DNA of 64,000 bases from Pseudomonas sp. 31-12 (GTDB taxonomy: Bacteria > Pseudomonadota > Gammaproteobacteria > Pseudomonadales > Pseudomonadaceae): positions 2,976,001 through 3,040,000 of the forward strand of contig NZ_CP029482.1 in NCBI RefSeq assembly GCF_003151075.1, in the 5' to 3' direction. Positions 7,768-55,756 of the stretch are shown piece after piece (the stretch's first letter is position 1; the number at the start of each line of letters is the position of its first letter). The translations under genes were made by a program, and so were the position numbers. The notes beneath the pieces were generated by a model. That model was not told the origin of the DNA. It saw nothing but the letters and a program-made list of their open reading frames with translations, and made no database searches.

Positions 7768-8661
7768 TTAAAGCAGATCGTTGAACAGCGGTTCCGGTAA
7801 ACCTTTGATGCCGGGGTCGAGCGCGAACACGCCGCCGGCCAATGACTGAGGGTCATGGTCGTCACCGGGGCGGATCGAGGTCACGAACAGCGTGTCCAGT
7901 CGACTGCCACCGAAGGCGCACATGGTGGGTTTTTTCACGGGGACGGCGAGGGAACGGTCCAGTCGGCCGTCCGGGGTGAAGCGGTGAATCAGTCCGGCGT
8001 CGTTGGCGCAAATCCAGTAGCCGCCTTCGGCATCAACGGCGGCGCCGTCGGGGCGGCCGGGGAACTGGTTCATGTCGACGAACAGCCGCCGGTTGGACGG
8101 GGTGCCGCTGTCGATGTCGTAATCGAAGGCCCAGATCTGCTGGACCAAGGGATGGGAATCGGACAAGTACATCGTCCGGCCGTCCGGGCTGAAGCCCAAG
8201 CCGTTGGGCACGATGAAGCCATCAAACCGCGCTTCGAGCGGCCCACGCTGTCCGGCGCTGTAGCGATACAACGTGCCGTCGGCGGCGTTGGCGCCCATGT
8301 TCAACACCATGCTGCCGGCCCAGAAACGCCCCTGACGATCACAGCGACCGTCGTTCAGGCGCATGTCGACGCGGGCGTGATCGACATGCGCGAGCAGCTC
8401 GGCGTCGAGGCTGCCGTCGTTGTGCGGCTGCAAATGGAAGAAGCCGCTTTCCATCCCGGCCACCCAGCCGCCGTCGCTGTGACGGGCGATACAGGCGAGC
8501 ATTTCCGGGGCGGTCCAGGCATGGACATGCCCGCTGTCGGCGCTCCAGCGCTGCAGTCCACCGGCAGGAATATCCACCCAATACAGGGCGTTTTCCTCGG
8601 GGACCCAGACCGGGCTTTCACCGACCGCGTTTCGGGCATCGACAATCAATTCGGCTTGCAT
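7768..8661 (-). CDS. SMP-30/gluconolactonase family aldarolactonase
   Basis: A 297-residue six-bladed beta-propeller of the SMP-30/gluconolactonase/LRE family. Metal-ligand motifs are visible: GESPVW (first Glu), LNDGRCD, FIVPNGLGFSPDG (Asn) and RPDGAAVDAEGGYW (Asp). In pseudomonads such enzymes beside uronate dehydrogenase hydrolyse the galactaro- or glucarolactone it makes, giving galactarate or glucarate. Gene order udh-lactonase-TRAP supports that role. Lactone specificity cannot be read from the sequence. Confidence 0.88.
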   Translation of the reverse strand: MQAELIVDARNAVGESPVWVPEENALYWVDIPAGGLQRWSADSGHVHAWTAPEMLACIARHSDGGWVAGMESGFFHLQPHNDGSLDAELLAHVDHARVDMRLNDGRCDRQGRFWAGSMVLNMGANAADGTLYRYSAGQRGPLEARFDGFIVPNGLGFSPDGRTMYLSDSHPLVQQIWAFDYDIDSGTPSNRRLFVDMNQFPGRPDGAAVDAEGGYWICANDAGLIHRFTPDGRLDRSLAVPVKKPTMCAFGGSRLDTLFVTSIRPGDDHDPQSLAGGVFALDPGIKGLPEPLFNDLL

Positions 8662-28645: not shown

Positions 28646-29029
28646 TCAAAGCGCGTATTGAGCGATGCCATTGCCAAACGACCAGTTCTCTTTTTTCACT
28701 TCCACCAGATTGATAAAGACGTCTTCCAGGCGCACCGCCAGTTCCGTGTTAAGGCTATCGGCGATGGTTTTGTAGAGGAGTTTTTTCTGCTCGATGGTTC
28801 GGCCTTCGCTCAGGGTGATCTGAATCACCACCAGGCTGTCGGTACGGCTGATGCCCAGGTAGCCGGGATCAAAGATGAAATGCTGCTCATCGTGCTCGGA
28901 AAGAATCTGGAAATTATCGTTTTCCGGCACGCCAATCGAGCTGTGCATGGCAGCGTAGATCAACTGCCCGACACGTTTTGCGAAAGTAGGGTCTTGATGC
29001 TTTTTGATGTCGACGCGAACGAGTGGCAT
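28646..29029 (-). CDS. Tautomerase family protein
   Basis: 127 residues starting MPLVRVDI, giving the N-terminal catalytic proline after Met removal that defines the 4-oxalocrotonate tautomerase/MIF superfamily. The length fits the Tautomerase_2 group (two fused short beta-alpha-beta units). AAGGAG sits 6 bases upstream of the ATG. It is the first full-sized gene downstream of the sigma-54 promoter candidate at 29417-29432 and the microprotein ORF at 29187-29282. Confidence 0.82.
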   Translation of the reverse strand: MPLVRVDIKKHQDPTFAKRVGQLIYAAMHSSIGVPENDNFQILSEHDEQHFIFDPGYLGISRTDSLVVIQITLSEGRTIEQKKLLYKTIADSLNTELAVRLEDVFINLVEVKKENWSFGNGIAQYAL

Positions 29030-29186
29030 GAGAGGCTCCTTAATCAGGGCTGCCGATCAGCAGTCAGGGTTGAAATTACCTGACGCTCATCCTTTATCAA
29101 ATAGATTTTTTGGAACCATCGTCTTCCAATATATATAGGCATGTTGGGAACGGCGGTAGGTGAACTATAAAAGTTGCCGTTTACTC

Positions 29187-29282
29187 TTAATCGAATAACA
29201 AGCCGATTAGATTCCAGCCTACCCCTATAGTAAAAATGAGAAGAATCAGTATAGATGTAAGCGTTATCGACTCATGGGGCAT
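29187..29282 (-). CDS. Putative 31-residue single-TM microprotein
   Basis: An ATG with GGAG 8 bases upstream opens a 31-codon frame ending TAA. The product starts MPHESITLTS and continues with a hydrophobic stretch of about 19 residues (ILILLIFTIGVGWNLIGLLF), so it would be a small inner-membrane protein. It lies about 120 bases downstream of a strong sigma-54 promoter match and upstream of the tautomerase gene on the same strand. The region is AT-rich and otherwise empty. No family recognised; coding status is inferred from the ribosome site, TM character and promoter. Confidence 0.45.
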   Translation of the reverse strand: MPHESITLTSILILLIFTIGVGWNLIGLLFD

Positions 29283-29416
29283 GATGGTAGCTCCCTAATA
29301 TAGCAACGTACTATGAGCGGCGAACTTCGGCGTGGGTATTTCATTACCTGCTGAGTGCAGATGCCTTGGAAGTGCCGCTTACCCCGATCTCTTGATTAAT
29401 ATCATAATTAAGATTC

Positions 29417-29432
29417 AGCAAGCTCTATGCCA
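29417..29432 (-). promoter_or_regulatory. Sigma-54 (-24/-12) promoter candidate
   Basis: On the minus strand TGGCATAGAGCTTGCT matches the sigma-54 consensus TGGCAYR-N4-TTGCW with GG and GC at exact spacing. Transcription would run left through the 31-codon ORF towards the tautomerase gene. Two enhancer-like sites lie 75-130 bp upstream (29509-29545). Confidence 0.65.
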
Positions 29433-29508
29433 CACTTATAGAGCCTGAAGTCTTGCCGGTTTAACCAGTTTTATGGGGCTCTTTCGATATAGGGTTGGGG
29501 TAAATAAA

Positions 29509-29545
29509 GCCCGTTTATGGGGGTGTTTCCTCTGAAATGGGGAGG
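29509..29545. promoter_or_regulatory. Paired CCCC/GGGG enhancer-like sites, copy 1
   Basis: Two palindrome-like sites, GCCCGTTTATGGGGGTG (29509-29525) and CCTCTGAAATGGGGAGG (29529-29545), are about 20 bp centre to centre. They closely resemble the pair at 33106-33144 and lie upstream of a sigma-54 promoter in the same orientation, as expected of enhancer-binding-protein sites. Confidence 0.55.
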
Positions 29546-29823: not shown

Positions 29824-32800
29824 TTACCGGGGTGCCGAGACCGCCACGGTCACCGTCGCCGGTGTCGATAACGCGCCCTTGGTATCGCTGGCCTGATAGG
29901 TAAAGCTGGCGACGAACGACGCTGCGATTGTGGCTGGTGGTGTGTAGATCACACGTGCGCCGTCGGTGCTGACCGCGACCGTGCCCTTGCCGGCGCTCGG
30001 TTGCGTTAACCCCACTACTTTAAGTGGCACATGACCGTCTGGATCGGAGTCGTTCGCCAGGACATTGATGGTCAGCGGTTTGCCGTCTCTGCTGCTGGCG
30101 CTGTCGGGTTTGGCGACAGGTTTTTTGTTTTCGCCTTCGCCCGTGCGGAAGGTCGGCAGCGCCGCGGAGTTTACATAGGTGACGCCGTCCCAGCCGGGCA
30201 GGGGCGTTGGCATCAACTGAAACTGGCCGGGCCTCTCGATGTCCCAGCGCAGCAGCATCGAAGTGTCCTCATGCTGGGTGTTGTGGCAGTGCTCCATGTA
30301 GGTCCCGGCGAACTCGCGGAAGCGGATGGCTATTTCCACGTCCACCGAACTGTCGATGCCCTCGCCAATGCGATAAACGTCCTTGCGCGCCCCTTTCTCC
30401 CATTCCGGCGGCGCCTTGCCGTCGCGGTTGAGGACGATGCCTTCTTCGAAATGCACGTGCACCGGGTGGCTCCAGCCGTTGCCGCCGTTCTTGATTTTCC
30501 ACACCTCGAGGGTGCCGTCGCCGGAGAACCCGGCATCGGTCGGACCGTTGGCCAGTTGCGGGGCGGCGCTGATTTGCCGTGAGTCCATCTGGTAGCCAAA
30601 ACCACCGTCGGTCTTGATGGTCCAGGGTTCTTCGTCGGTGCCATCGGAGCGGCCGAAGATGAACTCGCGATGCCGCGCCAGTTTGAGTTTGGCCTGCACC
30701 GTCGGATCGTCACGGTTGAGGGTCAGCGGAATCATGATTTTACCCTCCGGCTTGCCCGGTTTGGCCGGCTCGTACTCGGCAGGGTTCATGCTCACATCCG
30801 TGCCGCTGTAAGGCTGAACCACCAATTGCAGGAATTTGCCCACCACCGGGTCGCCGTTGTCCCATTCCAGTCCTTTGCTACCCAGCTTGAGTACTGCTTT
30901 GTACTTCCCGGACAGTACATCGGCCAGGCTCACCGGCTCTATCTCCGGCCCCCTGCCGCCCTGGTGCACCATCAGGTTGACGAAGTACAGCTTGTCGCCG
31001 GTCTTGATCCCGTTTTTCGCGAAGTTGACGATGATGTCGTAACGCTCGGCGATGCCCTGGGTCGGCAGGATAGCGTTGTGGTCCTGCAGGTCGCCGTCGG
31101 CGTCGAGGTCCATGCTGCCGTCGAATGGCACGGCGTGTTCCATGATGTTTCCGTCGTTGCCGATCATGTGGAACGGCACGCGCGCAAAAGACACGTTGGA
31201 ACCTGCCGGTCCGGGGAATTCACCGCCGGTGCCGGCGATTTCACGCACCAGCGCAATCCTGAAGTAGCGTGATATCGAGCCGTTGAGTATGCGGAAACGA
31301 TAGCTGCGAGCGCGCACATTCAGGCGCGGCTGGTACTGCCAGTTGACCAGGATCTGATCGCCGAGGAAGCCGTCGGTGTTGAACGGGTTGAACCACAACT
31401 GGCCGTTCTTATCCCAGGCTTTGTCGGCCACCATGAGGTTGACGTCATAGTCGCGGTTGCCCCAAGGCAGCGCCGAACCGCTCGGCAGACGCAGGTTGAC
31501 GCCGTCCTCGACCGCCTCGTTGCCGCGATCCAGGGCGCTGTAGTAATTCATCATCACTGCGTTGCCCTTGTAGACGTTCTGCGCGGTGAAATCGAGCATG
31601 TGGTCGTGAAACCAGTGAGTGCTCATGGTTTCGCGCCAGTCGCCGCGGATCTTGATGGTGCCGTTGTTGCAGGTCTTCAGGCCCGGGGTGGCGTCGTTGA
31701 CGAACAGGGTTTCGCCCGGCGCGCAGGGGAACGCCGCGCGAGGATCTTCAGCCTTGGTGTTGATGGTGTCGTAGCCGGCCAGTTGCATTGGCCAGCGATA
31801 GTCGTAGTACTGCCCCGGAAAGAAAAACGCATTGGTATAGCCGTCGCTTTCGGCCGGGTTGTGGCCGTTGTGTTCGTGGGTGCTGAGGGTGTGCAGGCCG
31901 AAACCCATGTTTGCGGCAGGGTCTATCGGCAGGGCGTTGTAGTGACGCATCAGCACCGGTTGGCCGTAGCGCACCATCAGCAGTTTTACCGGAAAGGTGC
32001 CGTCGAAGGTCCATAGCGCCTTGTGGTTCTGAATCGGCATTTTGGGGTGAAAACGGGTGTCGATGCCTTTGGTGGTGCCCGTGGTGGTCGGGATGTCCGA
32101 GGTCTTGTAGTAGAGCCCGCCAGGCCCGAACTCACCGGCGGCGTAGTTGTGCAGTTGTCGGCGGTCGCGCATGCCGCCGTTGAGTTTGGCGCCGACTTGC
32201 ACGGTTTTGAAGGCGACCTGCGGGTAGAACTCGTTCCAGCGTTGATGGGACCAGCCTTTTCCTGGCGGACGACCTTCGGCTGGCGAACCGACCGGATGGC
32301 GGTTGAGGAAGGCTTCAATCTGCGATTTCCAGGGGTTGCGATCCAGCACGTTGGAGTACTGCGACGGAAACGGGTAAAGCCCGGGTTGGCGCATGAAGGC
32401 TTCCAGTGCCGCACTCGACGGGCCGCTGCGAGCGATGCTGTTCGGGTCCTGCTGTGGTGCCGGGCCGGCAAGGGGCACAGGGAAGGTCAGTGTCGGTGCG
32501 GGCAGGGTCGGGTCGAGTTTTTCCGTGCCGAATTCCTCCATCAGCAGCAGTTGCTGGGTGAAGGGCTGCGCCCCGAACAACGGGCTGGGTTTGCCGTTGG
32601 TGGGGACTTTGAACGAGGTTTGCAGGCTCGGCGGCAGTGCGTTACCAGCGAGTGGGGTGTAGCGGTCACCGTACGCGCCGTTGGGCAGGGCAATTGCGCC
32701 CTGGTTGGTCGGCGGCATTGTTTTCAAGGCTTCCAGCGCTGCCGCAGGGTCGGCGGGTGGATTGGTGTACGCCGAGGGGTCCGTCGGTGACGGCTGGCTG

Positions 32801-32913
32801 ACATCGTCGAGCGGCACGGCATTGGCAGTGTTGAGAGTAAGGAGCATCGCACAGGGCAGGCTTGACCTGCACAGCAAGTGGATGGAATTGCATGGTGGTT
32901 TTGCGCGTTTCAT
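29824..32913 (-). CDS. Large exported multicopper oxidase with C-terminal Ig-like domain
   Basis: 1,029 residues with an N-terminal export signal (MKRAKPP..., hydrophobic LPCAMLLTLNTANA, AxA cleavage site). All four copper motifs are present: HEH at 346-348, HWFHDH at 433-438, HPVHVH at 816-821 and HCHNTQH at 875-881 with axial Met 886, so type 1 and the trinuclear centre should be functional. About 440-800 is an unusually long insert compared with 500-residue laccases. Residues about 935-1029 form a cadherin/Ig-like tandem (VLANDSDPDG, FTYQASDTKGALS), which suggests a surface or extracellular location. It has its own sigma-54 promoter candidate. Manganese oxidation is possible by analogy with Pseudomonas McoA/MnxG and Leptothrix MofA, but not shown. 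Confidence 0.88.
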   Translation of the reverse strand: MKRAKPPCNSIHLLCRSSLPCAMLLTLNTANAVPLDDVSQPSPTDPSAYTNPPADPAAALEALKTMPPTNQGAIALPNGAYGDRYTPLAGNALPPSLQTSFKVPTNGKPSPLFGAQPFTQQLLLMEEFGTEKLDPTLPAPTLTFPVPLAGPAPQQDPNSIARSGPSSAALEAFMRQPGLYPFPSQYSNVLDRNPWKSQIEAFLNRHPVGSPAEGRPPGKGWSHQRWNEFYPQVAFKTVQVGAKLNGGMRDRRQLHNYAAGEFGPGGLYYKTSDIPTTTGTTKGIDTRFHPKMPIQNHKALWTFDGTFPVKLLMVRYGQPVLMRHYNALPIDPAANMGFGLHTLSTHEHNGHNPAESDGYTNAFFFPGQYYDYRWPMQLAGYDTINTKAEDPRAAFPCAPGETLFVNDATPGLKTCNNGTIKIRGDWRETMSTHWFHDHMLDFTAQNVYKGNAVMMNYYSALDRGNEAVEDGVNLRLPSGSALPWGNRDYDVNLMVADKAWDKNGQLWFNPFNTDGFLGDQILVNWQYQPRLNVRARSYRFRILNGSISRYFRIALVREIAGTGGEFPGPAGSNVSFARVPFHMIGNDGNIMEHAVPFDGSMDLDADGDLQDHNAILPTQGIAERYDIIVNFAKNGIKTGDKLYFVNLMVHQGGRGPEIEPVSLADVLSGKYKAVLKLGSKGLEWDNGDPVVGKFLQLVVQPYSGTDVSMNPAEYEPAKPGKPEGKIMIPLTLNRDDPTVQAKLKLARHREFIFGRSDGTDEEPWTIKTDGGFGYQMDSRQISAAPQLANGPTDAGFSGDGTLEVWKIKNGGNGWSHPVHVHFEEGIVLNRDGKAPPEWEKGARKDVYRIGEGIDSSVDVEIAIRFREFAGTYMEHCHNTQHEDTSMLLRWDIERPGQFQLMPTPLPGWDGVTYVNSAALPTFRTGEGENKKPVAKPDSASSRDGKPLTINVLANDSDPDGHVPLKVVGLTQPSAGKGTVAVSTDGARVIYTPPATIAASFVASFTYQASDTKGALSTPATVTVAVSAPR

Positions 32914-32984
32914 TTTTCACCCCTCGCGTGATGCCCCGCCGTCTCCATGCTCGGGACGACAGCTAATGCGGGTACAAGGAGTGG

Positions 32985-33000
32985 AGCAACAATTGAGCCA
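32985..33000 (-). promoter_or_regulatory. Sigma-54 (-24/-12) promoter of the multicopper oxidase gene
   Basis: On the minus strand TGGCTCAATTGTTGCT has the invariant GG and GC at correct spacing and a full TTGCT -12 box. Transcription would begin about 60 bases upstream of the ATG at 32913. Enhancer-like sites lie about 105-160 bp further upstream. Confidence 0.65.
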
Positions 33001-33105
33001 TTACAGCAGCGCGAAGAAAAAGTTCAGTTTTATTGACCGGCGGCTTTGAGTGTGACAAGTGATCGAAAAACAGGGTGGGTGACATTCCTCAAATACGGTG
33101 GAAAG

Positions 33106-33144
33106 TCCCCGTTTATGGTGGGTGTAGTGCCCCATTTCTGGGAG
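33106..33144. promoter_or_regulatory. Paired CCCC/GGGG enhancer-like sites, copy 2
   Basis: TCCCCGTTTATGGTGGG (33106-33122) and GCCCCATTTCTGGGAG (33129-33144), about 23 bp centre to centre. The first shares CCCGTTTATGG with the site at 29509 and the second matches the reverse complement of the 29529 site. The rest of the 32914-33336 gap holds a G10 run (33287-33296) and a 7-bp hairpin (33299-33327) past the tolC-like stop, and no gene. Confidence 0.55.
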
Positions 33145-33336: not shown

Positions 33337-34665
33337 TCAGTTGGTGACCAGCAGTTCCGGGCCAAGGTAGTTGTTGATCTGGTCGATATCATCGTCACCC
33401 AGGCTGCCCACCGAAGAGGCCAGGCGCAGGCGTGACATCAAATAACGCAACTTGGCCTCGAACAGATCGTGTTGCGCAACGAAGAGCAGTTCTTGGGCGT
33501 TGAGGACATCCGAATTGGTACTGGTGCCGCCTTCCTTGAAACCCTTGCGTGTCGAAGTCAGTGAGCGTTCGTTGGACTCCACGGCCCGCTCCAGCGCTTG
33601 AATTCGTTTGGCGCCGCTGTGTATGCCGGCATACTCGCGGGTGGTTCCGGAGATGACTTCCTGTCGCGTGGCGTCGAGCTCGTCCAGGGCCTTGAAACTG
33701 TTGGCGCTGGCTTGGCGTGTCAGTGCGCTGGTACCGCCACCGTTGTACAGCGGGAAATTGACTTCCAGCCCGATTGAACCGTAGCGGTTGCGTTGATTGA
33801 GCTCGGAGATTGATTGGCTATCGCCCGCCGTGTAGCCGGCAACGAAATCCAGTGTCGGCCAGTGGCCTGCCCTGGCGCGCTTCACTTCTTCTTCAGCGAG
33901 GTTGCTGCTATGGCGGCGTGCATGGATCAGCGGGCTATCGGTCTGAGCCTTGACCAGCCAGTCTTGCAGGTTGCTCGGTTGTAGCGGTGGCGTATCGAAG
34001 GTCGGACGCAAGGTGGTCAGCGATTCGGGCGTTTCTCCGATGAATTCCTCAAGCTTGCGGCGCGCATTGATCAGGTTGTCCTGAGCTTCGATCAGCTCGG
34101 CTTCGGCGAGGTCGCGGCGAGCGACCGATTCGTCGATGTCGGTGACCGTACCGGCCCCCAGCTCCATGCGCCGTTTCGCCGAGGCGAGCTGCTCATCGAA
34201 GGCACTCAGTTTTGCCTTGGCGAGAATGATGGTTTCGCTGGCCAGGAGCACGTCGAAATAGCTTTCGGCCAGGCGCACTGCGGCGTCCTGACTCTTGGCA
34301 TCGAACACCGCGACGCTGTAGTCGGCACGCTGTTGACCTTGGCGGTATTCGGCCATTTTCTGTTTGTTGAACAGTGGCTGGCGCAAGCGCACATTGGCGC
34401 CCTTGGAGTCGTAGTCCAGATCCCTTTCGATGCCGCTCTGGCGCTGGGTGCCATTGACCTTGTTGTCGTAGGCCGAGGCACTGATCTGCGGTAGCAGGCC
34501 GGCCTGGCCAATGGCGCGGTTTTCCAGGCCGGCCTCTTTTTCATGCACGGCGGCGCGGTAGACGGGGCCTTGGTACTGCAGCAGATCCCAGGCTTGTTTG
34601 AGGTCCATGGCGCTGGCCGGGAGAGACAGCCCCAGCAGGCAGAAGATCAGGCAATGACGGTCCAT
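33337..34665 (-). CDS. Type I secretion outer-membrane protein (TolC family)
   Basis: About 442 residues with a signal peptide (MDRHCLIFCLLGLSLPASA). The two-repeat TolC fold follows, with long helical segments (DAAVRLAESYFDVLLASETI, AKRRMELGAGTVTDIDESVARRDLAEAELI) typical of AprF/PrtF-type channels. The ATG at 34665 has AGGAG 7 bases upstream; it starts one base after the hlyD-like stop. It should form the outer-membrane exit duct of the dedicated exporter for the RTX peroxidase. Confidence 0.9.
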   Translation of the reverse strand: MDRHCLIFCLLGLSLPASAMDLKQAWDLLQYQGPVYRAAVHEKEAGLENRAIGQAGLLPQISASAYDNKVNGTQRQSGIERDLDYDSKGANVRLRQPLFNKQKMAEYRQGQQRADYSVAVFDAKSQDAAVRLAESYFDVLLASETIILAKAKLSAFDEQLASAKRRMELGAGTVTDIDESVARRDLAEAELIEAQDNLINARRKLEEFIGETPESLTTLRPTFDTPPLQPSNLQDWLVKAQTDSPLIHARRHSSNLAEEEVKRARAGHWPTLDFVAGYTAGDSQSISELNQRNRYGSIGLEVNFPLYNGGGTSALTRQASANSFKALDELDATRQEVISGTTREYAGIHSGAKRIQALERAVESNERSLTSTRKGFKEGGTSTNSDVLNAQELLFVAQHDLFEAKLRYLMSRLRLASSVGSLGDDDIDQINNYLGPELLVTN

Positions 34666-34666
34666 T

Positions 34667-36007
34667 TCATTGCTCCTTGAACGAGCTGTCGACACGCTCG
34701 AGCATGGGTTTGAGAAGGTAGCTCATCAAGTTGCGCTCGCCGGTCTTGATGGTGACGCTGGCGGGCATACCGGGACGAATGTGATTGCTGCCAAGCAGGC
34801 TCATGCCTTCGGGTGTGACTTCTACCTGAGCCAGGTAGAACGGTTGCTTGCTTTCCTCGTCGAGCAGGCGGTCGGCGGAAACGGTCTTCACGCGGCCAGG
34901 GATGTTCGGCGTCTGGGCATGGTTGAAGGCCGGAAAGGCAATGTCCACGGCCAGGCCGGGGGCCATCTTGTCGATGGCCTGTACGGGAATCATCGCGTCG
35001 ACCTGCAGCGGTTCGTTGTCCGGAACGATTTCCATGATTTTGAAGCCGGGCTGAATGATCCCGCCGATGGTCGCAATGCTCAGTGACTGGACCATGCCAT
35101 CGATGGGCGAGCGAATCACCGTGTGGGTCACTTCATAGTCCAGCGCACGCAAGCGGTCGGCCAGGGTGGTGTTTTCCTTGGCGGTGTCGGTGAGCTGCGA
35201 TTCGACTTCCTTCTGGTAATCGTGCTGGCGCTGCAGGATGCGCAGCTTGATTTCGGTGGTCTGGCTCCGTATGCGAGCAATGTTGTTGAGGTTTTCGGCC
35301 TGGCCTGCGGAGAGGTCGGCGTTGCTGCGTTCCAGCTCAAGCAACCGGTTGCGCGGCACGTAACCTTCGGCTGCCAGCACGCGGGTGCCTTGTAGTTCCT
35401 GGTTGAGGAAGTTGATCTGCGAGGCGCGGGCGCCATAGACCTGCTGCAGACCCTTGAGCTGCACCGCCGACGCTGCGAGGTTTTCCTGCAGGATGCTGAT
35501 TTCGCCAGCGAGGCCGGCGCGCCGGGTATCGAGCAAACGTTGTTGCAGATTCATGGCGGCCACCAGGCGGTGGTCATGACTGAAGCGCTTGAGCAATTCG
35601 GGGTCGTAGTTCACTACATCGCGGCCGTCGCGTTCCGCTTCCAGGCGGTTTTCCACGGTCTTGCTGACGATGTACTGGGCGCTGACCGCACCTTGTTCGG
35701 CAACGGCACGCAGTGAGTCGAGGCGGACCAGCTCCTGGCCTTTTTTCACTGCATCGCCTTCGCGTACAAGAATGGCCTCCACGGTGCCGCCGCTCAGATG
35801 TTGCACGGCTTTGCGATTGCTGGTGACTTTTACCGTGCCTGTCGCTACCACGCCGGCATCGAGTGGCGCCAGCCAGGACCACAGGAGAAAGCCGCCGAAG
35901 CCGGCGAGCACCAGCCAAATGCCCCTGCGCATGGGTTTGCCGACGTCCAGATCCACCACGTTTCTGGGGTCGGTGTGAATCATCTCAATGTGTTGGTTCA
36001 TTTGCAT
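34667..36007 (-). CDS. Type I secretion membrane fusion protein (HlyD/PrtE family)
   Basis: 446 residues. A short cytoplasmic N-terminus and one TM segment (GIWLVLAGFGGFLLWSWLAPLDAG) come first. Lipoyl-like halves (VKVTSNRKAVQHLSGGTVEAILVREGDAVKKGQ) then flank a long coiled coil, followed by the HlyD C-terminal signature region (PEGMSLLGSNHIRPGMPASVTIKTGERNLMSYLLKPM). It lies 6 bases after the ABC gene and before the TolC gene, the standard PrtDEF order. Confidence 0.92.
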   Translation of the reverse strand: MQMNQHIEMIHTDPRNVVDLDVGKPMRRGIWLVLAGFGGFLLWSWLAPLDAGVVATGTVKVTSNRKAVQHLSGGTVEAILVREGDAVKKGQELVRLDSLRAVAEQGAVSAQYIVSKTVENRLEAERDGRDVVNYDPELLKRFSHDHRLVAAMNLQQRLLDTRRAGLAGEISILQENLAASAVQLKGLQQVYGARASQINFLNQELQGTRVLAAEGYVPRNRLLELERSNADLSAGQAENLNNIARIRSQTTEIKLRILQRQHDYQKEVESQLTDTAKENTTLADRLRALDYEVTHTVIRSPIDGMVQSLSIATIGGIIQPGFKIMEIVPDNEPLQVDAMIPVQAIDKMAPGLAVDIAFPAFNHAQTPNIPGRVKTVSADRLLDEESKQPFYLAQVEVTPEGMSLLGSNHIRPGMPASVTIKTGERNLMSYLLKPMLERVDSSFKEQ

Positions 36008-36013
36008 GATCGG

Positions 36014-37750
36014 TCACTCCCGTGCTTTGACGGAGGCCAGCGGAGTCGACGCGCCTGCAGGCATCACATTGGACTTGCGCAGCGCTGCGAATACTTCGTC
36101 ACGTGTGCCAAGCATCTGAACGCCGCCGTCGCGCAGCATCAGCACTTTGTCGACGGCGCAGAGCACGTTGGGACGGTGGGAAATCAGAATGACGGTGGCG
36201 CCACGGCCCTTGAGTTGGGCCAGCGCATCGACCAGGGCTTTTTCACCGACGTCGTCGAGGTTGGCGTTCGGCTCATCCAGCACAATCAGATTGGGCTCTC
36301 CGTACAGCGCGCGGGCCAAGGCGATGCGTTGCTTCTGGCCACCGGAAAGCGGGCTGCCATCGGTGCCCAGACGGGTCTCATAACCCTGCGCAAAACGCAG
36401 GATCATCTCGTGCACTCCCGTCGCTCTTGCGGCGCGGATGACTGCGTCGCTGTCCACTTCACCAAAGCGCGCAATGTTATCGGCGATGGTGCCCTCGAAC
36501 AGCTCCACATCCTGTGGCAGGTAACCGAGCCAGGGGCCAAGTTCGCCCTTGTTCCAGGTGAATATGTCCGCGCCGTCCAGGCGCACCTTGCCGGCCTGCG
36601 CCGGCCAGACGCCGACCAACAGGCGGGCGAGGGTGGATTTGCCCGAGGCGGATGGGCCGATAATGCCAAGGCTTTCGCCGGGCGAGAGGTTGAAGCTCAC
36701 CCCGCGCAGAATCGTGTTGCCGGTGCCGGGGGCGCCGGCATACACATTCTCCACTGACAGCATGCCAAGCGGCCGCTGCAGCGACATGCTGGGTGGCCGG
36801 CGCGGATAGTCTTCAAGCATCTCGTTGAGCCGGCCCCAGGCCGAACGGCAACCGAGCAGTTGTTTCCACGACGCGATGACTTGTTCCACCGGGGCCAGCG
36901 CTCGGCCGGTGAGGATCGAGCAAGCAATCATCATCCCGGGGGTGATCTTGCCTTCGATCGCCAGCAGTGCGCCGGCGCCGAGGATCAGCGACTGCAACGT
37001 GATACGCACGAAGCGCCCGGTGCTGCTGATCAGGGCGGCACGGTCGGAGGCCAGGGTCTGCATTTCCAGGATGCGCAAATGGCTTTGGTACCAGCGCTTG
37101 CCAATCGACGGCAGCATGCCCATGGCTTCGATCACCTCGGCGTTGCGCAGGTTGTTGTTGGCGTAGCAGGCGGAGGAGAGAGCGGCCTGATTGGCTTCGG
37201 CCAGCGGCTTCTGCGTGGCCTTTTCGGTGAGATAAGCCAGGAACACCAGAATCAGCGAGCCGATCAGGGTGATCAGTCCGAGCAGCGGGTGGATCAGGTA
37301 GGCGACCAGCAGGTACAGCGGCGTCCAGGGCGCATCGAAAAAAGCGAACAGGGCATTGCCGGTGAGGAACTGACGAACTTGCGCGAGATCTTGCAGGGCC
37401 TGGGCCGGATTGCCTCCGGCGCGGCTCAGGTTGCGCTCGAATGCGGCCGTGAAAATGCGTCGGTTCAGGTCCATGTCGAGGCAATTGCCGACCCGGATCA
37501 ACACGCGGGTGCGGACCAGTTCCAGGGTGGACATCAGCAAGAACAGGCCTATCACCAGCAAGGTCAACATCGTCAATGTCGTGACGTTGCGACTGACCAA
37601 GGCCCGGTCGTAGACCTGCAGCATGTACACGGCTGGCGTCAACATCATGACGTTGATGACGCCACTAAACCCTGCCAGCGAATAAAAACTGCGGCGCAGG
37701 CGAAAAATCGCGTCGGCCAGTTCGGATCGGGTGCTTGAGAGCTTGTGCAT
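36014..37750 (-). CDS. Type I secretion ABC exporter (PrtD/AprD family)
   Basis: 578 residues from the ATG at 37750 (GAGGG 8 bases upstream). The N-terminal ABC-1 membrane domain has about six TM helices and no C39 peptidase or CLD domain. The ATPase has Walker A GPSASGKST, signature LSGGQKQRIALARAL, Walker B LIVLDEPNANLD and the H-loop ISHRP. PrtD-type exporters move RTX proteins bearing an uncleaved C-terminal signal. Divergent from the giant RTX peroxidase gene, its evident substrate. Confidence 0.93.
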   Translation of the reverse strand: MHKLSSTRSELADAIFRLRRSFYSLAGFSGVINVMMLTPAVYMLQVYDRALVSRNVTTLTMLTLLVIGLFLLMSTLELVRTRVLIRVGNCLDMDLNRRIFTAAFERNLSRAGGNPAQALQDLAQVRQFLTGNALFAFFDAPWTPLYLLVAYLIHPLLGLITLIGSLILVFLAYLTEKATQKPLAEANQAALSSACYANNNLRNAEVIEAMGMLPSIGKRWYQSHLRILEMQTLASDRAALISSTGRFVRITLQSLILGAGALLAIEGKITPGMMIACSILTGRALAPVEQVIASWKQLLGCRSAWGRLNEMLEDYPRRPPSMSLQRPLGMLSVENVYAGAPGTGNTILRGVSFNLSPGESLGIIGPSASGKSTLARLLVGVWPAQAGKVRLDGADIFTWNKGELGPWLGYLPQDVELFEGTIADNIARFGEVDSDAVIRAARATGVHEMILRFAQGYETRLGTDGSPLSGGQKQRIALARALYGEPNLIVLDEPNANLDDVGEKALVDALAQLKGRGATVILISHRPNVLCAVDKVLMLRDGGVQMLGTRDEVFAALRKSNVMPAGASTPLASVKARE

Positions 37751-38443
37751 TTGATAGTCCCTCACCGAAAAAGCCGGTAGTGCTTGCGGCAAAACCGCAT
37801 CAGCAAATGTTGTGGCAAACCATAGATGTAGTTGCGAATGCTTATCGTGGACACAAGCGATAGCGTTCTTTGAAAAGTTCCATAAATTTTTATATTCACA
37901 AGCAGCAGCGTAGGTGGCGTTTGTCTCTCTAGCGATACAGTTTGAAATAACATTTCGCTCTATTGGTTCATCTGAATATCTATATCTCGTTTAAGAACAG
38001 TAAGTTGGCGGGTCAGATGCCAATCGTCTTTTTTTACGTCGTAATATTGACAGCGCATGTCTATAGAACTTTAGTCATGTGCAAGGGCGCCCGTCTGAAG
38101 CTTGCCATCGCTTCGAAAGTGCAAGGCACGGTGGTCCTGAAGGAGCACCGCATGTCGATCATTTCGTTCTGTAACACCGTGACGGAGCTGTTCAGGAAGT
38201 TCGCTTCGACTTCCCGATTCCATGGCCCACCAGTGGCTCGGAATCGCTCTGCCTAATCGCTCAGCGAGCAATTCCTCCAGCGAATTCCAGGCGCGCATTC
38301 ACCGGCGCAGGGGACGGCTTTGCCTGCCCCACGCCTGCTCTCGCCAAACACTGAACCAACGAACTGCGCAAGCCAGCACGTGACTTGGCGCGGGAGGATT
38401 TATTCGTCCCGAGCCTTTCCCATATAGATCGAGGGCAATCGAA
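37751..38443. promoter_or_regulatory. Divergent control region, secretion operon / RTX peroxidase
   Basis: 693 bases, AT-rich between about 37850 and 38060. It must carry the promoters for both divergent units. A match to the sigma-54 spacing (TGGCGGGTCAGATGCC, 38006-38021, plus strand) exists but lacks the TTG of the -12 box and lies over 400 bases from the start. The CCCC/GGGG enhancer-like sites found at the oxidase gene are not seen here. A short ORF at 38152-38256 is listed separately. Confidence 0.5.
38152..38256 (+). CDS. Possible 34-residue leader/small ORF
   Basis: ATG with GGAG 6 bases upstream opens a 34-codon frame (MSIISFCNTVTELF..., basic C-terminal half) ending TAA, on the same strand as and 188 bases before the RTX peroxidase gene. 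No family recognised. It could be a chance frame; the ribosome site is its only support. Confidence 0.25.
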   Translation: MSIISFCNTVTELFRKFASTSRFHGPPVARNRSA

Positions 38444-41400
38444 ATGGCCAATTTCAACAAGTCGGACCTGGAATTCATCCTCAAGCAAATCTTCATCGCA
38501 GAAGCGCATGCCAACGGAACCAGCCTTGGTGATTTATTACCCAACAGTCAGGTGCCATTCGGCCTGCGAACCGTCGATGGCAGCTTCAACAACCTGGTCG
38601 CCGGGCAAAGCGAGTTTGGCGCTGCGGACAATTCCTTCCTGCGCCTGCTTGATGCTTCGTATCGTGCGTCGTACGCCGGGACAGGGACGGTGGTCGACCC
38701 GCAGCCACGGATTATCAGTAACCTGATTAACGACCAGACCGCCAACAACCCGGCCGCGGTTGCGGCGAACGGCGGTGCCACCCCGATCATCAGTCCCGGT
38801 CTGGATGGCGTGTTCGGCACGGACGACGACAAGGAAGTGTTCTTTATCCCCAACGAGTCGCCGGACGTGGGTCTGACCGCCGGCTTCAACTCGTGGATGA
38901 CTTTCTTCGGCCAGTTCTTCGACCATGGCCTCGACCTGGTCAGCAAGAGCAGTACCGACATCGTATTTATTCCGCTGATGCCGGACGATCCGTTGTTCAC
39001 ACCGGGCAGCCCGACCAATTTCATGGTGCTGTCACGAGCAGTGCGTACGGCCGGCGCGGACGGAATAGTCGGCACTTCCGATGATGGCCAGCCCAATACC
39101 ACCTCGCCATTCGTAGACCAGAGCCAGACCTACAGCTCCCACCCATCGCATCAGGTGTTCCTGCGCGAGTACGTCCTGAACGCAGCAGGTGACCCTGTTG
39201 CAACGGGGCGCTTGATTACCAACCGCGATCTCGGCGCTGATGGCAAATTCGGCACGGCCGATGATGGCGACGGCGAAAGCGGCGGCATGGCGACCTGGGC
39301 AGTGGTAAAAGCCCAAGCCCGTGACATTCTCGGCATCAACCTGACCGACCTCGATGTGCACAACGTGCCGCTGCTGGCAACGGATGCCTATGGCAGCTTC
39401 ATCCGGGGGCCGAACGGCATGCCTCAGGTGGTGATGCGCACCAGTAATGGTGCCGACGGTATTGCCGGGACGGCTGATGACGTCACGCAACTGGTCGAAG
39501 GCAACCGGGATGCTCCGATCAGTCTGGCAAGCGCCGTAAGCACCGGGCATGGTTTCCTCGACGACATCGCCCACAATGCCGCGCCGGTAGTCGTCGGAGG
39601 GGTTCTGCAGGCGGATGCCGACGCCGATGTCGGCAATGCGCAGCCCGTTGGTGCGGGCGGCAATAACCTGACCTATGACAACGAACTGCTCGACGCCCAC
39701 TACATTGCCGGCGACGGCCGGGCGAACGAAAACATTGGCCTGACCGCCGTGCACCATGTGTTCCACTCCGAGCACAACCGCCTGGTCCAGCAGTCCAAGC
39801 AAACCATCCTGGCCGCCGGAGATCTGGCGTTTCTCAATGAGTGGCTGGTGGACGATGTCGCCGCAATGCCGACGACGCTCGCCGAAATCTCAGCCTTGGT
39901 GTGGGACGGTGAACGCCTGTTCCAGGCCGCCAAGTTTGGCACCGAGATGCAGTACCAGCACCTGGTGTTCGAGGAGTTCGGGCGTTCCATTCAGCCGCAG
40001 ATCGATGCATTCCTTGCACCCAACGGGTATGACACCTCGATCAACCCGGCCATCCTCGCCGAGTTCGCCCACGTGGTGTATCGCTTCGGTCACTCGATGT
40101 TGACCGAGACCGTCGATCGTTTCGACCCTGAATTCAATCCGCTGCTCACTGACCCGAACAACCCGGACTCGCAAATGGGTTTGATCGCGGCCTTCCTCAA
40201 CCCGCTGGCGTTCGCCGGCAGCGGGGCCACTGCTGACGAAGCGGCAGGGGCGATCATTCGCGGTGTGACCCGCCAGCTCGGCAACGAGATCGACGAGTTC
40301 GTCACCGAAGCGTTGCGCAACAACCTGCTCGGTCTGCCGCTCGATTTGCCGGCGCTGAACCTGGCGCGTGGTCGCGACACGGGCATCCCCACGCTGAATG
40401 AGGCGCGCCGTGAGTTCTACGCATCGACCGGCGACAGCCAACTCAAGCCGTATATCAGTTGGGCTGACCTGGCAGACAACCTCAAGCACCCCGAGTCGCT
40501 GGTTAACTTCATCGCCGCCTACGGCACGCATGACACGATTACCTCGGCGACCACGCTGGCCGACAAACGCGATGCAGCCTTGGCGCTGGTATTCGGTGGT
40601 CCGGGTGCACCGGCTGACCGCCTGGACTTCCTCAATGGCAGCGGTACCTGGGCCAACGTGACGAAGGCCGGCAAGGATGGGGTGCTGGGCACTGCAGATG
40701 ACCTGACGGGTGTAACGATCACGGGTGTCGACGACATCGATTTCTGGGTCGGTGGCCTCGCCGAGCAGAAAATGCCGTTCGGCGGCATGCTCGGCTCTAC
40801 GTTCAACTTCGTATTTGAAACCCAGATGGAAGCGTTGCAGGACGGCGATCGCTTCTACTACCTGTCACGCACCGCTGGCCTGAACTTCGGCACCGAGCTG
40901 GAAAACAACTCCTTTGCCAAGCTGATCATGCTCAACACCGATGTGACCCACCTGTCGAACACCGTGTTCTTGACGCCTACGTACACCCTGGAAGTGAATC
41001 AGGCCAATCAGTTCACCGGCCTTGGCGCCAACGGCGGCGCCGACCCGACTGGCGGCCTGATGATCAACGGCGTGGAAATCGTGCCACTGGTGATCCGAAA
41101 CAATCCCGACACCGTTGGTGCGGACAGTAATTATCTGCAATACACCGGCGAAGACCATGTCGTCCTCGGCGGCACCGCCGGCAATGACATTCTCATCTCC
41201 GGTGACGGCGATGACACCCTTTACGGCGACGGCGGCAACGACCGTCTCGAAGGTGGCGCCGGGAACGATGCGGTACTGGGTGGCGCGGGCGATGACATCA
41301 TTACTGACTCCTTCGGCGACAACCGTCTGGAAGGCAATGCCGGCAACGATGTAATCGTGGCCGGTAGCATGCTGGCTGGAGGTAACCTGATCCTGGGCGG

Positions 41401-44400
41401 CGATGGGCAGGACTTTATCGTCACCACAGAAGACATCAGCACCACTTTTGGCGGTCAGGGCGACGATTTCATCCTGGGTGCCAAGACCAACCTGCCAGCC
41501 ACCGGCAACGAAGGCGATGACTGGATCGAAAAGGGCACCCAGGACGGTGCGCCTGGCGATAACGCCTCGCCCTTGCTCAACGATGATGTGATCGGCAACG
41601 ACATCTTCATAGGGGGCGCTGGCTTCGACGAAATGATCGGCGAGGGTGGCGATGACATCTTTGTCGGCAGCGATGCCCAGGACAATATGGACGGCATGTC
41701 CGGTTTCGACTGGGTGACCCACAAAAATGACCGGATCGGCGTCACTGTTGATCTGACCATGGCCGCGCTGGCTCAGCCACACGGCAACGCGCCAAACCAG
41801 AACAACGGGCCGTTCAATCCAGTCGGCGCATCGCCGGCCTCGATCCTCGACCGGTTTGCCGAGGTCGAAGGCTTGTCCGGTTCGAAATTCGGCGATGTGC
41901 TCAAGGGCGATAATATCGATGCAGTCACTATCGTCGACCACGGTGGTACCACCGGCAGTGCGCTGACCAACGTGGCGTTGATCCGGGGGCTGGAGCAGCT
42001 TCTGGCGGATGCCGGTTTGCCGACCACCGGCTTTGCCACGGGTAACATCATCCTGGGTGGCGACGGCAGTGACCTGATCGAAGGACGCGGGGGTGATGAC
42101 CTGATCGACGGCGACAAATGGCTCAACGTCAGGATTGCGGTTTATGACGCCGGCGATGTCAATCATACCGGTCCGGAGATCGCCAGTTTCGACAGCATGG
42201 TCGACATGATCCCTTTCATGCTGGACGGTACCTATAACCCGGGCCAGCTCAAGGCAGTGCGGGAAATCCTGCCCGGTACCTCGACGGGCGGGGCGGCTTT
42301 CGATACCGCCTTTTTCTCCGGCGTCCAGTCCGAGTATGTGGTGACACGGGACGACCGCGGCACGGCCAGCCTGGCGGACGATGTCTGGACGGTGGCCGAT
42401 ACCGTGGCGGGTCGCGACGGCGTCGATACCCTGTTGCATATCGAGCGCCTGCAGTTCGCCGATACCCAGCAAGTGCTGGTGCCGGGGCTTAATGCGCAAC
42501 CCGTTGGCAGACCGACCATTGCCGATGGAAACGGCGGGGCGATTACGGTGGGCGACATGCTGACCGTCAGTGTGGCCGGGGTGACCGATGCCAACAACGT
42601 CGGGGGTACTCTGAACAATTCTTCGGTGTCCTACTATTGGCAGTTCGAGGCCGATCCAGGCACTGGCGTGTTCGAGGACATCATCCTGCTACCTGCCGGT
42701 GACCTGGCGTTCCAGAGTGCCGACGGCACCTCGTTCAAGGTCTCTCCAGATCTCGCCGGGTTGTCGTTGCGGGTCAAGGCGATCTACCAGGATGGTCATG
42801 GCACGACAGAAGTGGTGTTCTCGCAACCGACTGCCGTGGTCGCTCCCGGCGCCCCGGTTGTGCCGGTGGCGCAGGCACCTGTCGTCGATGCGACCGCGGG
42901 CGGCGAGGGCCTCAACATGGTCCGCTCCGACCTCAACTTCATTCTTGATCAGATCAAGATTGCCGAGGCTGATGCGGCCGGTCAGGACATGCTCTCATTG
43001 ATCCCGAATATCCGCGCACCCTTGGGCTTGCGTGCGGTCGATGGATCGAACAACAACCTGTTGAACCTCAATGGCATCAACAACACCCAGTATGGTGCTG
43101 CCGATAACGTCTTTCCGCGGCTGACCGATCCGGTGTTCAATCCGGCCGAAGGTGCTCCTGCCGGATTCTTTGGCCCCGGCTCGCCGGCCATCCCGGGATC
43201 GTCCTATCAGCAAACCAGCGGGGCTGTGTTTGACTCGCAGCCGCGCACCATCAGTAATCTGATCGTCGACCAGACGTCGAACAACCCGGCGGCCTATGCC
43301 ACGGCGTACGACGCGGGGGCGGACGGTGTGCTCAATTACGGCGTGCCGGACAATGATGACGTGCTCAAGGAGGGTGTGCGGATCGTCGCCAGCCCCGGCA
43401 TGGATGGCCAGTTCGGTACGGGCGACGACCACGATGTTTACCTGTTCGAGAACACCACCGCGGATGCGGGATTGTCCGCGCCGTTCAATGCCTGGATGAC
43501 TTTCTTCGGGCAGTTCTTCGACCATGGTCTGGACCTGCTTACCAAGGGCGGTTCGGGCACCGTCTACATTCCGCTGCAACCGGATGATCCGCTGTATGTA
43601 CCCGGCGGCCACACCAACTTTATGGTGCTGACCCGCGCGACCAACCAGCCAGGGGCGGATGGCGTGCTCGGCACGGCCGACGATGTCCGTGAGCACACCA
43701 ACACCACCACACCGTTCGTGGACCAGAACCAGACCTACAGCTCGCACCCCTCGCATCAGGTTTTCCTGCGCGGTTATGAGCTGACTGACAATGGCCCCAT
43801 CGCGACCGGCCGACTGATCACTAACCGTGACCTGGGGGCGGACGGCAAGTTCGGGACTTCAGACGACACCGAAATCGGTGGCATGGCCACCTGGAAGGTG
43901 GTCAAGGCGCAGGCCAATGACATTCTGGGTATCCGCCTCACCGATGCCGATGTCGATAACTCTCCGTTGTTGGCAACCGACGCCTATGGCAACTTCATCA
44001 AGGGGCCAAACGGCTTCCCGATGGTTGTGATGAAAGGGGCTGACGGTCTTGGCGGCACGGCGGATGACGTTCTGGTCGAAGGCAATCCGCTTGCTCCCGT
44101 CGACCTGACCAATGCGGTGCGCACCGGTCACCAGTTCCTCGCCGACATTGCCCACAATGCAGCGCCGGTGTTCAGCGGTGGCGTGCTCGTGCCTGATGCG
44201 GATTCCAACATCGGCAACGCAGTGCCGGTCAATCCGCAGACCGGGGCTAACCTGGCCTACGACAACGAGTTGCTGGATGCTCACTACATCGCCGGCGACG
44301 GCCGGGTCAACGAGAACATCGGTCTGACCGCCGTGCATGCGATCTTCCACGCCGAGCACAACCGGCTGGTTGCGCAGACGATGGACACCGTCCTCGATTC

Positions 44401-47400
44401 GGCTGACCTGACCTTCCTCAACGAGTGGCTGCTGGCTCCGGTGAGCGCGTTGCCCGTCAACCAGGCCGAGATCGATGCGCTGGTGTGGAATGGCGAGCGC
44501 TTGTTCCAGGCGGCCAAATTCGGCACCGAGATGCAGTATCAGCACCTGGTGTTCGAGGAGTTTGCACGGACCATTCAGCCCCGAGTTGACCTGTTCTTTG
44601 CACCGACCCAGGTCTATGACGTCGACCTCGATGCCTCGATCGTCGCCGAGTTCGCCCACACCGTTTACCGGTTTGGCCACTCGATGCTGACCGAAACCGT
44701 CGATCGCTACGATGTCGATTTCAACGTGGTGGGCGATCCGAACAGCGCTGATCCCGATCAGCAACTTGGCTTGATCGCGGCGTTCCTCAACCCGTTGGCG
44801 TACGCCGCCAGTGGCGTGACGCCTGAGGATGCGACCAGTGCGATCATCCGTGGGGTGACTCGGCAAGCCGGTAACGAAATCGACGAGTTCGTGACCGAGG
44901 CGCTGCGCAATAACCTGCTCGGCCTGCCGCTCGACCTGCCGGCGATCAACATCGCCCGTGGCCGCGACGTGGGGATTCCCTCACTCAACGAGATCCGCCG
45001 CGACATCTACAGCCAGACCGGTGATACCCAACTCAAGCCTTACACCAGCTGGGTCGACCTGGTCCAACACCTCAAACATCCGGAGTCGTTGATCAACTTC
45101 ATCGCCGCCTATGGCACGCATGACACGATCACGGCCGCGACCACCCTGGAAGCCAAACGCGCTGCTGCCATGGCGCTGGTATTTGGCGGTACGGATGCGC
45201 CGGCTGACCGCATGGACTTCCTCAACAGTACTGGCACTTGGGCCAACGTGACGCGTGCCGGCAAGGACGGGTTGCTGGGGACTGCCGACGATCTGAAGGG
45301 TGTGACCGTTACGGGCGTCGATGCCATCGACCTCTGGATCGGTGGCCTGGCCGAAGAGAAAACGCCGTTCGGCGGCATGCTCGGCTCGACCTTCAACTTC
45401 GTGTTCGAGAACCAGATGGAAAAACTGCAGGACGGCGACCGCTTCTATTATCTGGAGCGTACCTCCGGCCTGTCGATGAATGCCGAGCTGGAAAGCAACT
45501 CGTTTGCCAAGCTGATCATGGCCAACACCTCGGCCACGCACTTGCCAGGCCTGGTGTTCTCGGACCCGGGGTTCTATCTGGAAAGGGACCAGAGCAAGCA
45601 GTTCAACGATGGCCTGGGCAACGCCGATCCACTGGGCGAGAACGGCGAGCAGGTGGTCTTCCGCGACAACCCGCTGACCGCGGGGCCGGACACCAACTAC
45701 ATCAGGTACACCGGTGATCAGCACATCGTACTGGGTGGCACCAACAACGCAGACATCCTCATCGCCAGTGAAGGCGATGACACGGTCTGGGGTGACGGCG
45801 GCAACGATCGCATCGAAGGGGGTGACGGTAATGACCAACTGCGCGGTGGTGCCGGCGACGACATCATCAGCGACCGCGGTGGCGACGATAACATTCAGGG
45901 TGGCGACGGCAACGACGTGCTGCACGGTGGCAACGGCGTCAACCTGATCATTGGCGGTTTTGGTAATGACTTCATCGTCACCGGCGAGGACGCGTCCGAG
46001 GCCATTGGTGGCCAGGGCAACGACTTCATCCTGGGCAGCAAAGCCAACGAACAGGACATGGGTAACGAAGGCGACGACTGGATCGAGAAGGGCACCTCGG
46101 ACGGTGCACCTGGCGACAACTTCGACCCGCTCGGCAACGACCCTGTCATCGGCCACGATGTGTTCATCGGCGCCAGCGAAAACGACAAGTTCAACGGTGA
46201 GGGCGGCGACGACATCATGGTTGGCAGTCTCGGCTTTGGTGACCGCTATATCGGTGGTTCCGGCTATGACTGGGCGACTTTCAAGGACCTTGCCCAAGGC
46301 GTGTCCATCGATTTCACCGACCGCTTTTTCGATGTACCTCCGGTGCCGGGATCGGGTGCCTCGGCGCTCGTGCGTTTCGACATCATGGAGGGTCTGTCGG
46401 GGTCGGCGCACGGTGACTTCCTGCGCGGTAATAGCGAAGACGCAACCTCGCTACCCACCGCCGGCGCGACCGGCAGTGTGTTGACCAACATCAACCTGAT
46501 CGACGGCCTGGCTGATCTGTTGCCCGCCGGAGCGACATTCTTCGACGGCGGCAACATCATCCTCGGTGGCAGCGGCAGCGACCTTATCGAAGGTCGCGGT
46601 GGTGACGACATCATCGATGGTGACAAGTGGTTGAACGTACGCATCAGCGTACGGGCAAACATTGATGGCACTGGCCCGGAAATCGCCACGTTCGACAGCA
46701 TGGAACCGATGGTGCCGCTGATGCTCAACGGTACTTACAACCCGGGCCAGTTGGTCATCGTGCGGGAGATTCTGACCGGCAATGATCGCTACGACACTGC
46801 GGTGTTCTCTGGTAATTCCTCGGAATACCTTGTCGAAGTCCAGGGCGACACCGTTATTGTGACCGACCTGGTGGCGGGGCGTGATGGCGTCGATCGACTG
46901 ACGGGCATCGAGCGTCTGCAGTTCTCTGACCTGGCGCAAGAGTCCGGAGTGGGCACCGCCTTGAACGAAGGCCCATCGGGTCATCTGGCGATCCTCGACG
47001 ATGCTACCGGTCTGCGTGACGACACGCCGGTCGCCGGCCAGTTGCTGCGCGTCAGCAATCGGGCGGTACACGACGCGGACAACCAAACCCTGGCCAATCC
47101 GACCGGCGCAGTGACCGGTGCGGTGGCTTACTACTGGCAGGTCGAAAACATTCCTGGCACGGGCATCTATGAAGACATCACCGTGGTTGCTGCCGGCGAA
47201 GCTACGCGAGCAACCGGCACCACCTACCGGGTGGCGGATGATATAGCGGGCCTGAACATCCGCGTCAGGGCGGTGTATCAGGATACCAAGGGCACACTGG
47301 AGATCATCGACTCTTCGGGGAACAGCACGCCGACCGTAGGGCCGACCGTCAACGGGCTTTTGGTGCAAAACCAACTGTTGACCGCTGACCCGTCGAGCAT

Positions 47401-55618: not shown

Positions 55619-55756
55619 CCTGTGGTGAGGGGATTTATCCCCGTTGGGTTGCGAAGCAACCCCAAAATCAGGCACCCGGATGGATCAGACATACCGTGTG
55701 CGTCGGTTTTGCGGCGACTGCATCGCCGAACGGGGATAAATCCCCTCGCCACAGGG
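55619..55756. repeat. REPIN, GGGGATTTATCCCC subtype
   Basis: Arms based on TGTGGTGAGGGGATTTATCC (left, from 55619) and GGATAAATCCCCTCGCCACA (right, ending 55756) face each other between two convergent genes. Confidence 0.85.

Follow-up and report, generated by a model that had tools for sequence, protein, structure and literature searches.

A Conserved 31-Codon Gene Encoding a Predicted Membrane Microprotein, a Probable Member of the MnxR/Sigma-54 Manganese-Oxidation Regulon in Pseudomonas

Gene Content of the Manganese-Oxidation Locus

The window, by which we mean the whole 64,000-nucleotide stretch analyzed here (positions 2,976,001-3,040,000 of a 6.73-Mb Pseudomonas genome), contains a manganese-oxidation locus. 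Its relevant features, in window coordinates, are as follows.

28646-29029, minus strand: tautomerase gene, a neighbor judged not to be part of the unit
29187-29282, minus strand: 31-aa single-TM microprotein MPHESITLTSILILLIFTIGVGWNLIGLLFD, called from an indel-free family alignment, purifying selection and hydropathy
29283-29404, minus strand: predicted 5' leader, with a putative start about 12 bp past the -12 element, including the ribosome site AGGGAG at 29291-29296
29417-29432, minus strand: -24/-12 sigma-54 promoter TGGCATAGAGCTTGCT, the sole exact match to TGGCAYNNNNNTTGCW in the 64 kb
29497-29513, minus strand: enhancer site B CGGGCTTTATTTACCCC, weak (score at most 1.8, one extra base), 64 bp upstream of the -24/-12 element
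29518-29533, minus strand: enhancer site A AGAGGAAACACCCCCA, 16 bp, TGGGG-N6-CCCCA type, 85 bp upstream of the -24/-12 element
29824-32913, minus strand: McoA-type multicopper oxidase, 1029 aa (Pfam Cu-oxidase_2), candidate co-regulated partner of the microprotein
32985-33000, minus strand: mcoA -24/-12 sigma-54 promoter TGGCTCAATTGTTGCT, score 18.5 of 19.5
33076-33091, minus strand: mcoA promoter-proximal enhancer site TGAGGAATGTCACCCA, score 18.5
33119-33134, minus strand: mcoA promoter-distal enhancer site TGGGGCACTACACCCA, score 15.2
33337-37792: type I secretion set OEP/HlyD/ABC
38444-50212, plus strand: MopA-type giant haem peroxidase, 3922 aa (An_peroxidase and RTX repeats), whose gene accompanies the microprotein family in genomes

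By sequence, the window oxidase and giant peroxidase resemble McoA and MopA, which the available text of PMC5906577 lists as two of the three manganese oxidases of P. putida GB-1. The window McoA is 73-74% identical to the products of mcoA genes that lie between mnxS1 and mnxS2, adjoining mnxR, in four relatives, and the accessible part of PMC11409713 describes the same arrangement for strains MS-1 and DSV-1. MnxG is encoded elsewhere in the window genome (76% identical to the copy of genome G150), as is an MnxR orthologue (96% identical to a relative's copy, L091).

The 31-Codon Gene and Its Product

The original prediction had placed a 31-codon ORF with a good ribosome site and a TM helix downstream of a sigma-54 promoter. 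This ORF proved to belong to a conserved family. A search of 398 Pseudomonas genomes using a two-sequence profile matched 107 of them at E ≤ 1, of which 13 were counted as carriers (11 at E < 1e-6, a weaker member in G099 and a frameshifted member in G136) and the other 94 were set aside. A 12-sequence profile returned the same 13 of 398 genomes, 12 of the 13 being themselves in the profile; at E ≤ 0.05 this profile matched 24 of 398, and 11 with E values of 0.0016-0.046 were set aside en bloc, being regarded as incomplete hits that mostly sat inside longer frames. When 199 genomes were searched at the DNA level, G057 proved to hold a diverged version of both promoter and ORF. Additionally, named genomes were scanned with a single peptide pattern; nine of 103 stretches were accepted, all from Pseudomonas, and of these nine loci the ones in P. 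putida ASAD, P. serbica IT-P366 and Pseudomonas sp. BGI-2 were new. P. umsongensis DSM 16611 and P. migulae NBRC 103157 are also carriers. Altogether the family comprises 16 loci with 15 intact copies, each of exactly 31 codons. No plasmid-borne copy was matched using one family member as the query.

The reading frame is conserved in relatives, as 12 intact members align at 31 residues without indels and the ASAD, serbica and BGI-2 copies likewise have 31. The overall pN/pS across the family was 0.50. In three phylogenetically separate pairs, selected after the table had been seen and with synonymous sites fixed at 22 of 93, synonymous and nonsynonymous changes were 4:1, 8:4 and 7:5 (combined p = 3e-5). 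Within the tightest cluster, two pairs gave dN/dS values of 0.96 and 1.27 from four and five changes, and three pairs showed one or two nonsynonymous and zero synonymous changes. From these sequence comparisons, the 31-codon ORF is taken to be a genuine conserved gene that is overall under purifying selection. An overlapping upstream ORF of 26 codons (29264-29344) was dropped because its frame is lost in umsongensis on alignment.

All 13 peptides scanned for hydropathy hold a 19-residue stretch with a mean of 2.1-2.8, and the product is predicted to be a single-pass protein, most likely of the inner membrane. Residues T9, L12, I16 and G20 are invariant in the TM helix, which faintly suggests packing against another membrane helix; the helix-face periodicity gave p = 0.10 at 100 degrees, 0.015 over 80-120 degrees and 0.06 over 60-180 degrees. 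The family has no conserved cysteine or histidine. None of 12 members matched a Pfam or NCBIfam profile at E < 0.01, the best E values being 0.015 in Pfam (COX14, one member) and 0.38 in NCBIfam.

As a separate observation, G150 harbors an extra hydrophobic ORF (L078:9400-9840; 59 or 73 codons depending on the start, MTNSIAATNQLNILWWFF...) between the sigma-54 promoter and the microprotein gene, and a stretch similar to it is present in G136 (L081).

Promoter and Enhancer Sites

The predicted -24/-12 element at 29417-29432 was verified as the only exact match in the 64 kb. Allowing one mismatch, TGGCAYNNNNNTTGCW had five matches in the window compared with a shuffle mean of 5.63, a number not above chance; it is the position of the single exact match that counts. 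By weighted consensus score, the element shared the top rank in the window with the mcoA promoter and one site within the peroxidase gene.

A site matrix for the enhancer sites was built from the mcoA promoters of other genomes, the window genome's own promoter (L010) being excluded from training and a locus at a contig end (L029) being omitted from the promoter set. A palindrome-constrained EM motif drifted to 9.9 bits with window matches not above shuffles, and it was replaced by sites gathered with a TGRGG-N6-CCC-type pattern. In total, 32 G[GA]GG-N6-nCCC sites were gathered from 24 of 28 foreign mcoA promoters, seven of which carry two sites exactly 42 bp apart. The best -24/-12 match scored at least 17.5 of 19.5 in all 29 mcoA upstream regions. 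The claim that a site pair and a sigma-54 promoter stand before the window oxidase was borne out, both mcoA sites and TGGCTCAATTGTTGCT lying at the positions given above.

Both of the sites expected upstream of the microprotein gene were recovered, at 29518-29533 (site A) and, weaker, at 29497-29513 (site B). Site A scored 12.0 (shuffle p = 0.003 with the model trained only on other genomes' mcoA promoters), ranked seventh among window positions and aligned, with variation, in 11 compared family promoters. Site B reads CGGGC/TGGGC-TGTATT-ACCCG in most relatives, and the 20 bp separating the two sites in the window also separate them in most relatives. Across the family, a -24/-12 promoter of TGGCAYAGAGnnTGC type is preceded by TGGGG-N6-CCCCA-type sites at 15 of the 16 loci. 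The foreign mcoA model detected an enhancer site in all 14 family promoters scanned (shuffle p ≤ 0.05), matches that are not independent because the promoters are related to one another; the BGI-2 site, outside the 14 scored, is identical to that of the window. The G099 member showed no promoter (score of at least 16) and no site (at least 8) within 1.3 kb upstream.

The 11-mer CCATAAACGGG occurs twice in the 6.73-Mb genome, in the microprotein and mcoA promoters, compared with 11 occurrences in the backward control. It was rejected as the regulator motif on inspection by eye, as it is not conserved in the relatives' mcoA promoters; what these conserve is the TGGGG-N6-CCCCA-type site. A composite pattern of sigma-54 element and site gave two matches in the genome, both at these promoters (backward control, one); since it was derived from those two promoters, only the absence of further matches is informative.

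The promoter of the genome's own mnxG, which lay outside the training set, also carries a site. Here TGGGGAATATCCCCCG, with a score of 17.2, stands 49 bp before the sigma-54 element TGGCATGCGGATTGCT, and a genome search with this site-promoter spacing yielded two places, one of them mnxG (control, 0). GB-1 mnxG and mcoA promoters are predicted to depend on IHF and sigma-54 and require manganese, as given in the available text of PMC11930936. No upstream site with a score of at least 8 was found for mopA and the type I secretion genes, and a weak -24/-12 match near them (37802-37817) was discarded, the key GG being absent.

Single sites as strong as site A or better occur elsewhere in the window (54673, 13122, 55628 and 55731); the 25 best -24/-12 matches are all more than 1 kb away from these four. 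Two of the four, 55628-55643 (AGGGGATTTATCCCCG) and 55731-55746 (CGGGGATAAATCCCCT), are near-perfect, enhancer-site-like palindromes that lie between genes at a distance of about 100 bp from each other. Upstream of the genome's own mnxG, strong TGGGG...CCCCA sites (L129:8647-8663 and 7990-8006) flank an ORF that by eye appears lytic-transglycosylase-like and is perhaps another target of the same regulator. The mcoA leaders (window 32914-32984 and L011-L019) contain, by eye, an apparently conserved inverted repeat CGTC...GACGG with GGA near the loop, which we take to recall Rsm-type post-transcriptional sites.

MnxR as the Probable Common Regulator

MnxR is a sigma-54 response regulator required for manganese oxidation in P. 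putida GB-1. Among the 398 genomes, MnxR was found in 132 and McoA in 119, with 116 harboring both. MnxR was present in 12 of the 13 microprotein carriers compared with 120 of the 385 non-carriers (p = 1e-5). The sole carrier without MnxR, OWC5 (G134), has kept both gene and promoter and gave no MnxR, McoA, MnxG or MopA match at the thresholds used; this copy may be a relic. That 13 of 398 genomes carry the microprotein compared with 132 carrying MnxR indicates that manganese oxidation does not require the microprotein. The available text of PMC11409713 describes MnxR as a predicted sigma-54-dependent factor and reports that an rpoN insertion in strain MS-1 abolishes manganese oxidation.

The suggestion that one enhancer-binding protein controls both the oxidase and the microprotein gene is supported as probable by the site model that the two promoters share. 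MnxR is a strong candidate for this protein, probably binding at both promoters, and we hold with good confidence that the microprotein belongs to an MnxR-type regulon. In the mechanism we propose, MnxS1 and MnxS2 would activate MnxR, which would bind the tandem TGGGG-N6-CCCCA-type sites. Sigma-54 polymerase would then be driven from the -24/-12 promoters of mcoA, mnxG and the 31-codon gene, yielding the predicted transcripts, and the microprotein would be expressed in stationary phase under manganese induction.

Genomic Neighborhood and the MopA Branch

In 12 of the 16 loci mopA is no more than about 10 kb away, and in ten the microprotein gene is convergent with mopA at 0.1-2.3 kb from its 3' end. 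Among these ten, the gene is placed between mcoA and mopA in umsongensis, ASAD and serbica and is separated from mopA by a PMT-type gene in G046 and H24. In the other two, the window and BGI-2, it stands behind mcoA in an mcoA/secretion/mopA cluster, about 9 kb from mopA. OWC5 retains TrmK/PMT surroundings as in other strains, but without mopA. In G150 the gene and its promoter are divergent from a second mnxG copy; two of the flanking genes of G150 are also present in G136, and the G099 locus is elsewhere.

MopA and MnxG were counted in 80 genomes hand-picked from 133, where other peroxidases, about 2000 aa long and matching at 38-47% identity, were not scored as MopA (which affects G038, G220 and G227). 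On this basis, MopA was present in 11 of 13 carriers compared with 20 of 67 other MnxR genomes (p = 3e-4). MnxG was found in 12 of 13 and 61 of 67, respectively, and these nearly equal proportions make its presence uninformative.

Two further observations concern the neighborhood. A lone receiver-domain-like protein (about 137 aa, recognized by eye; 57% identity) is encoded near the microprotein gene in G150 (L078:10228-10641) and G099 (L080:9790-10200). The second mnxG copy of G150 (C132) belongs to a separate lineage with representatives in G166 (C113), G263 (C1:2222176) and G339 (C326); these three copies are 86-87% identical to that of G150, compared with about 73-76% for the common type, and all four genomes also hold a common-type mnxG.

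We consider it likely that the region 29187-29545 on the minus strand forms a unit with just one gene within the manganese-oxidation regulon, driven by MnxR and sigma-54, with a membrane product probably serving the MopA branch. A role in this branch is proposed because the gene lies mostly beside mopA and in mopA-bearing genomes. The microprotein would probably assist or adjust the branch, for example in type I export or in its balance with the multicopper oxidases. Least secure in this reading is what the peptide does, which is put forward tentatively. It is conceivable, and we suggest it with similar reserve, that a new family of MnxR-controlled microproteins links both manganese-oxidation branches by acting at the inner membrane on MopA export or activity, with promoter and 31 codons travelling together as a mobile cassette found next to mopA, mcoA or an mnxG paralogue. 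A fleQ deletion in GB-1 raised MopA and lowered MnxG and McoA activities, according to the available text of PMC9765421. This opposite response of MopA and the multicopper oxidases makes a microprotein link between the branches plausible.

The most serious competing explanation, which we nevertheless regard as rather unlikely, also assumes MnxR and sigma-54 control but assigns the peptide a general partner in manganese stress, such as a respiratory oxidase, a cytochrome or a metal transporter, with mopA adjacency reflecting shared horizontal movement. Such targets are tuned by small subunits of the CydX and CcoM type. The gene occurs beside mcoA and mopA, beside mopA alone or beside an mnxG paralogue, and these varied oxidase neighbors indicate that no single oxidase is obligatory for the microprotein. 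One member weakly resembles COX14 (E 0.015) and one CoxIIa (E 0.066), as a general partner would suggest. However, the enrichment of MopA in carriers over other MnxR genomes (11/13 vs 20/67) speaks against it.

Extent of the Unit

The tautomerase gene predicted downstream is present at 28646-29029, but its assignment to the same unit was not supported. In BGI-2, the nearest relative (McoA 96% identical), the alignment spans promoter, leader and ORF and ends just past the stop codon of the microprotein gene; the 20-kb locus yielded no tautomerase. Five other genomes harbor tautomerase orthologues (80-94% identical) with the same upstream leader, and the family searches found no microprotein gene at these five loci. 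As judged from these alignments, linkage of the two genes is not a conserved feature. Of the proposed small-protein accessory branch, the part supported is a microprotein as a probable branch of the manganese-oxidation regulon, none having been found described in the literature searched, and the part not supported is the tautomerase. A transcript running on into the tautomerase as a two-gene operon is improbable, given the BGI-2 locus and the five loci with tautomerase and leader alone. The two genes do share a strand at a distance of 157 bp; as neither a minus-strand terminator-like site nor a sigma-70-like promoter was detected between them, read-through is possible in the window strain.

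Conservation is not confined to the coding part, since the leader block before the ribosome site and the promoter region are conserved too, as would be expected if an MnxR-driven regulatory RNA or leader were the main conserved unit and the peptide secondary. We think this quite improbable, as the constant length of 31 codons, the ribosome site and purifying selection point to the peptide, and the leader has long indels, a consensus fold of just -0.15 kcal/mol and no Rfam match. A riboswitch or hairpin in the leader was rejected, Rfam giving no match and no consensus structure being obtained. Finally, a type I toxin-like hydrophobic peptide would fit in size and hydrophobicity but is very unlikely for a gene with a regulated promoter and enhancers at loci tied to manganese oxidases.

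Comparison with Known Systems

The single-gene, MnxR-driven unit proposed here touches on the question of why pseudomonads hold three manganese oxidases and how these are balanced. A small membrane protein under an MnxR-type switch, mostly beside mopA, would connect the branches in a tangible way and be simple to delete, and with the enhancer motif candidate MnxR targets can be listed for mnxR-bearing genomes. In the open literature, seen in part and mostly without subscription papers, no microprotein in Pseudomonas manganese oxidation and no MnxR motif was found; it is possible that either has already been described in earlier literature.

Among the closest known systems is the MnxS1/MnxS2/MnxR regulon of GB-1, comprising mnxG and mcoA, which has the same regulator family, promoter type and manganese-oxidase genes as the system described here. 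It differs in that neither a microprotein gene nor a binding motif for MnxR was found described for it in the text available. The Bacillus proteins MnxE and MnxF are likewise small proteins accompanying a manganese-oxidizing multicopper oxidase; however, in the available text of PMC5622069 they are copper-binding proteins of about 12 kDa that form an MnxE3F3 hexamer bound to MnxG. In contrast, the microprotein has 31 residues, one TM helix and its own promoter and is not in an oxidase operon. The small single-pass membrane proteins CydX, CcoM, KdpF, AcrZ and MntS act as modulators of larger complexes, and the microprotein is like them in its size, its one TM helix and its condition-specific promoter. 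It has no clear sequence family match and is set apart from them by its predicted sigma-54 control and its link to manganese oxidases.
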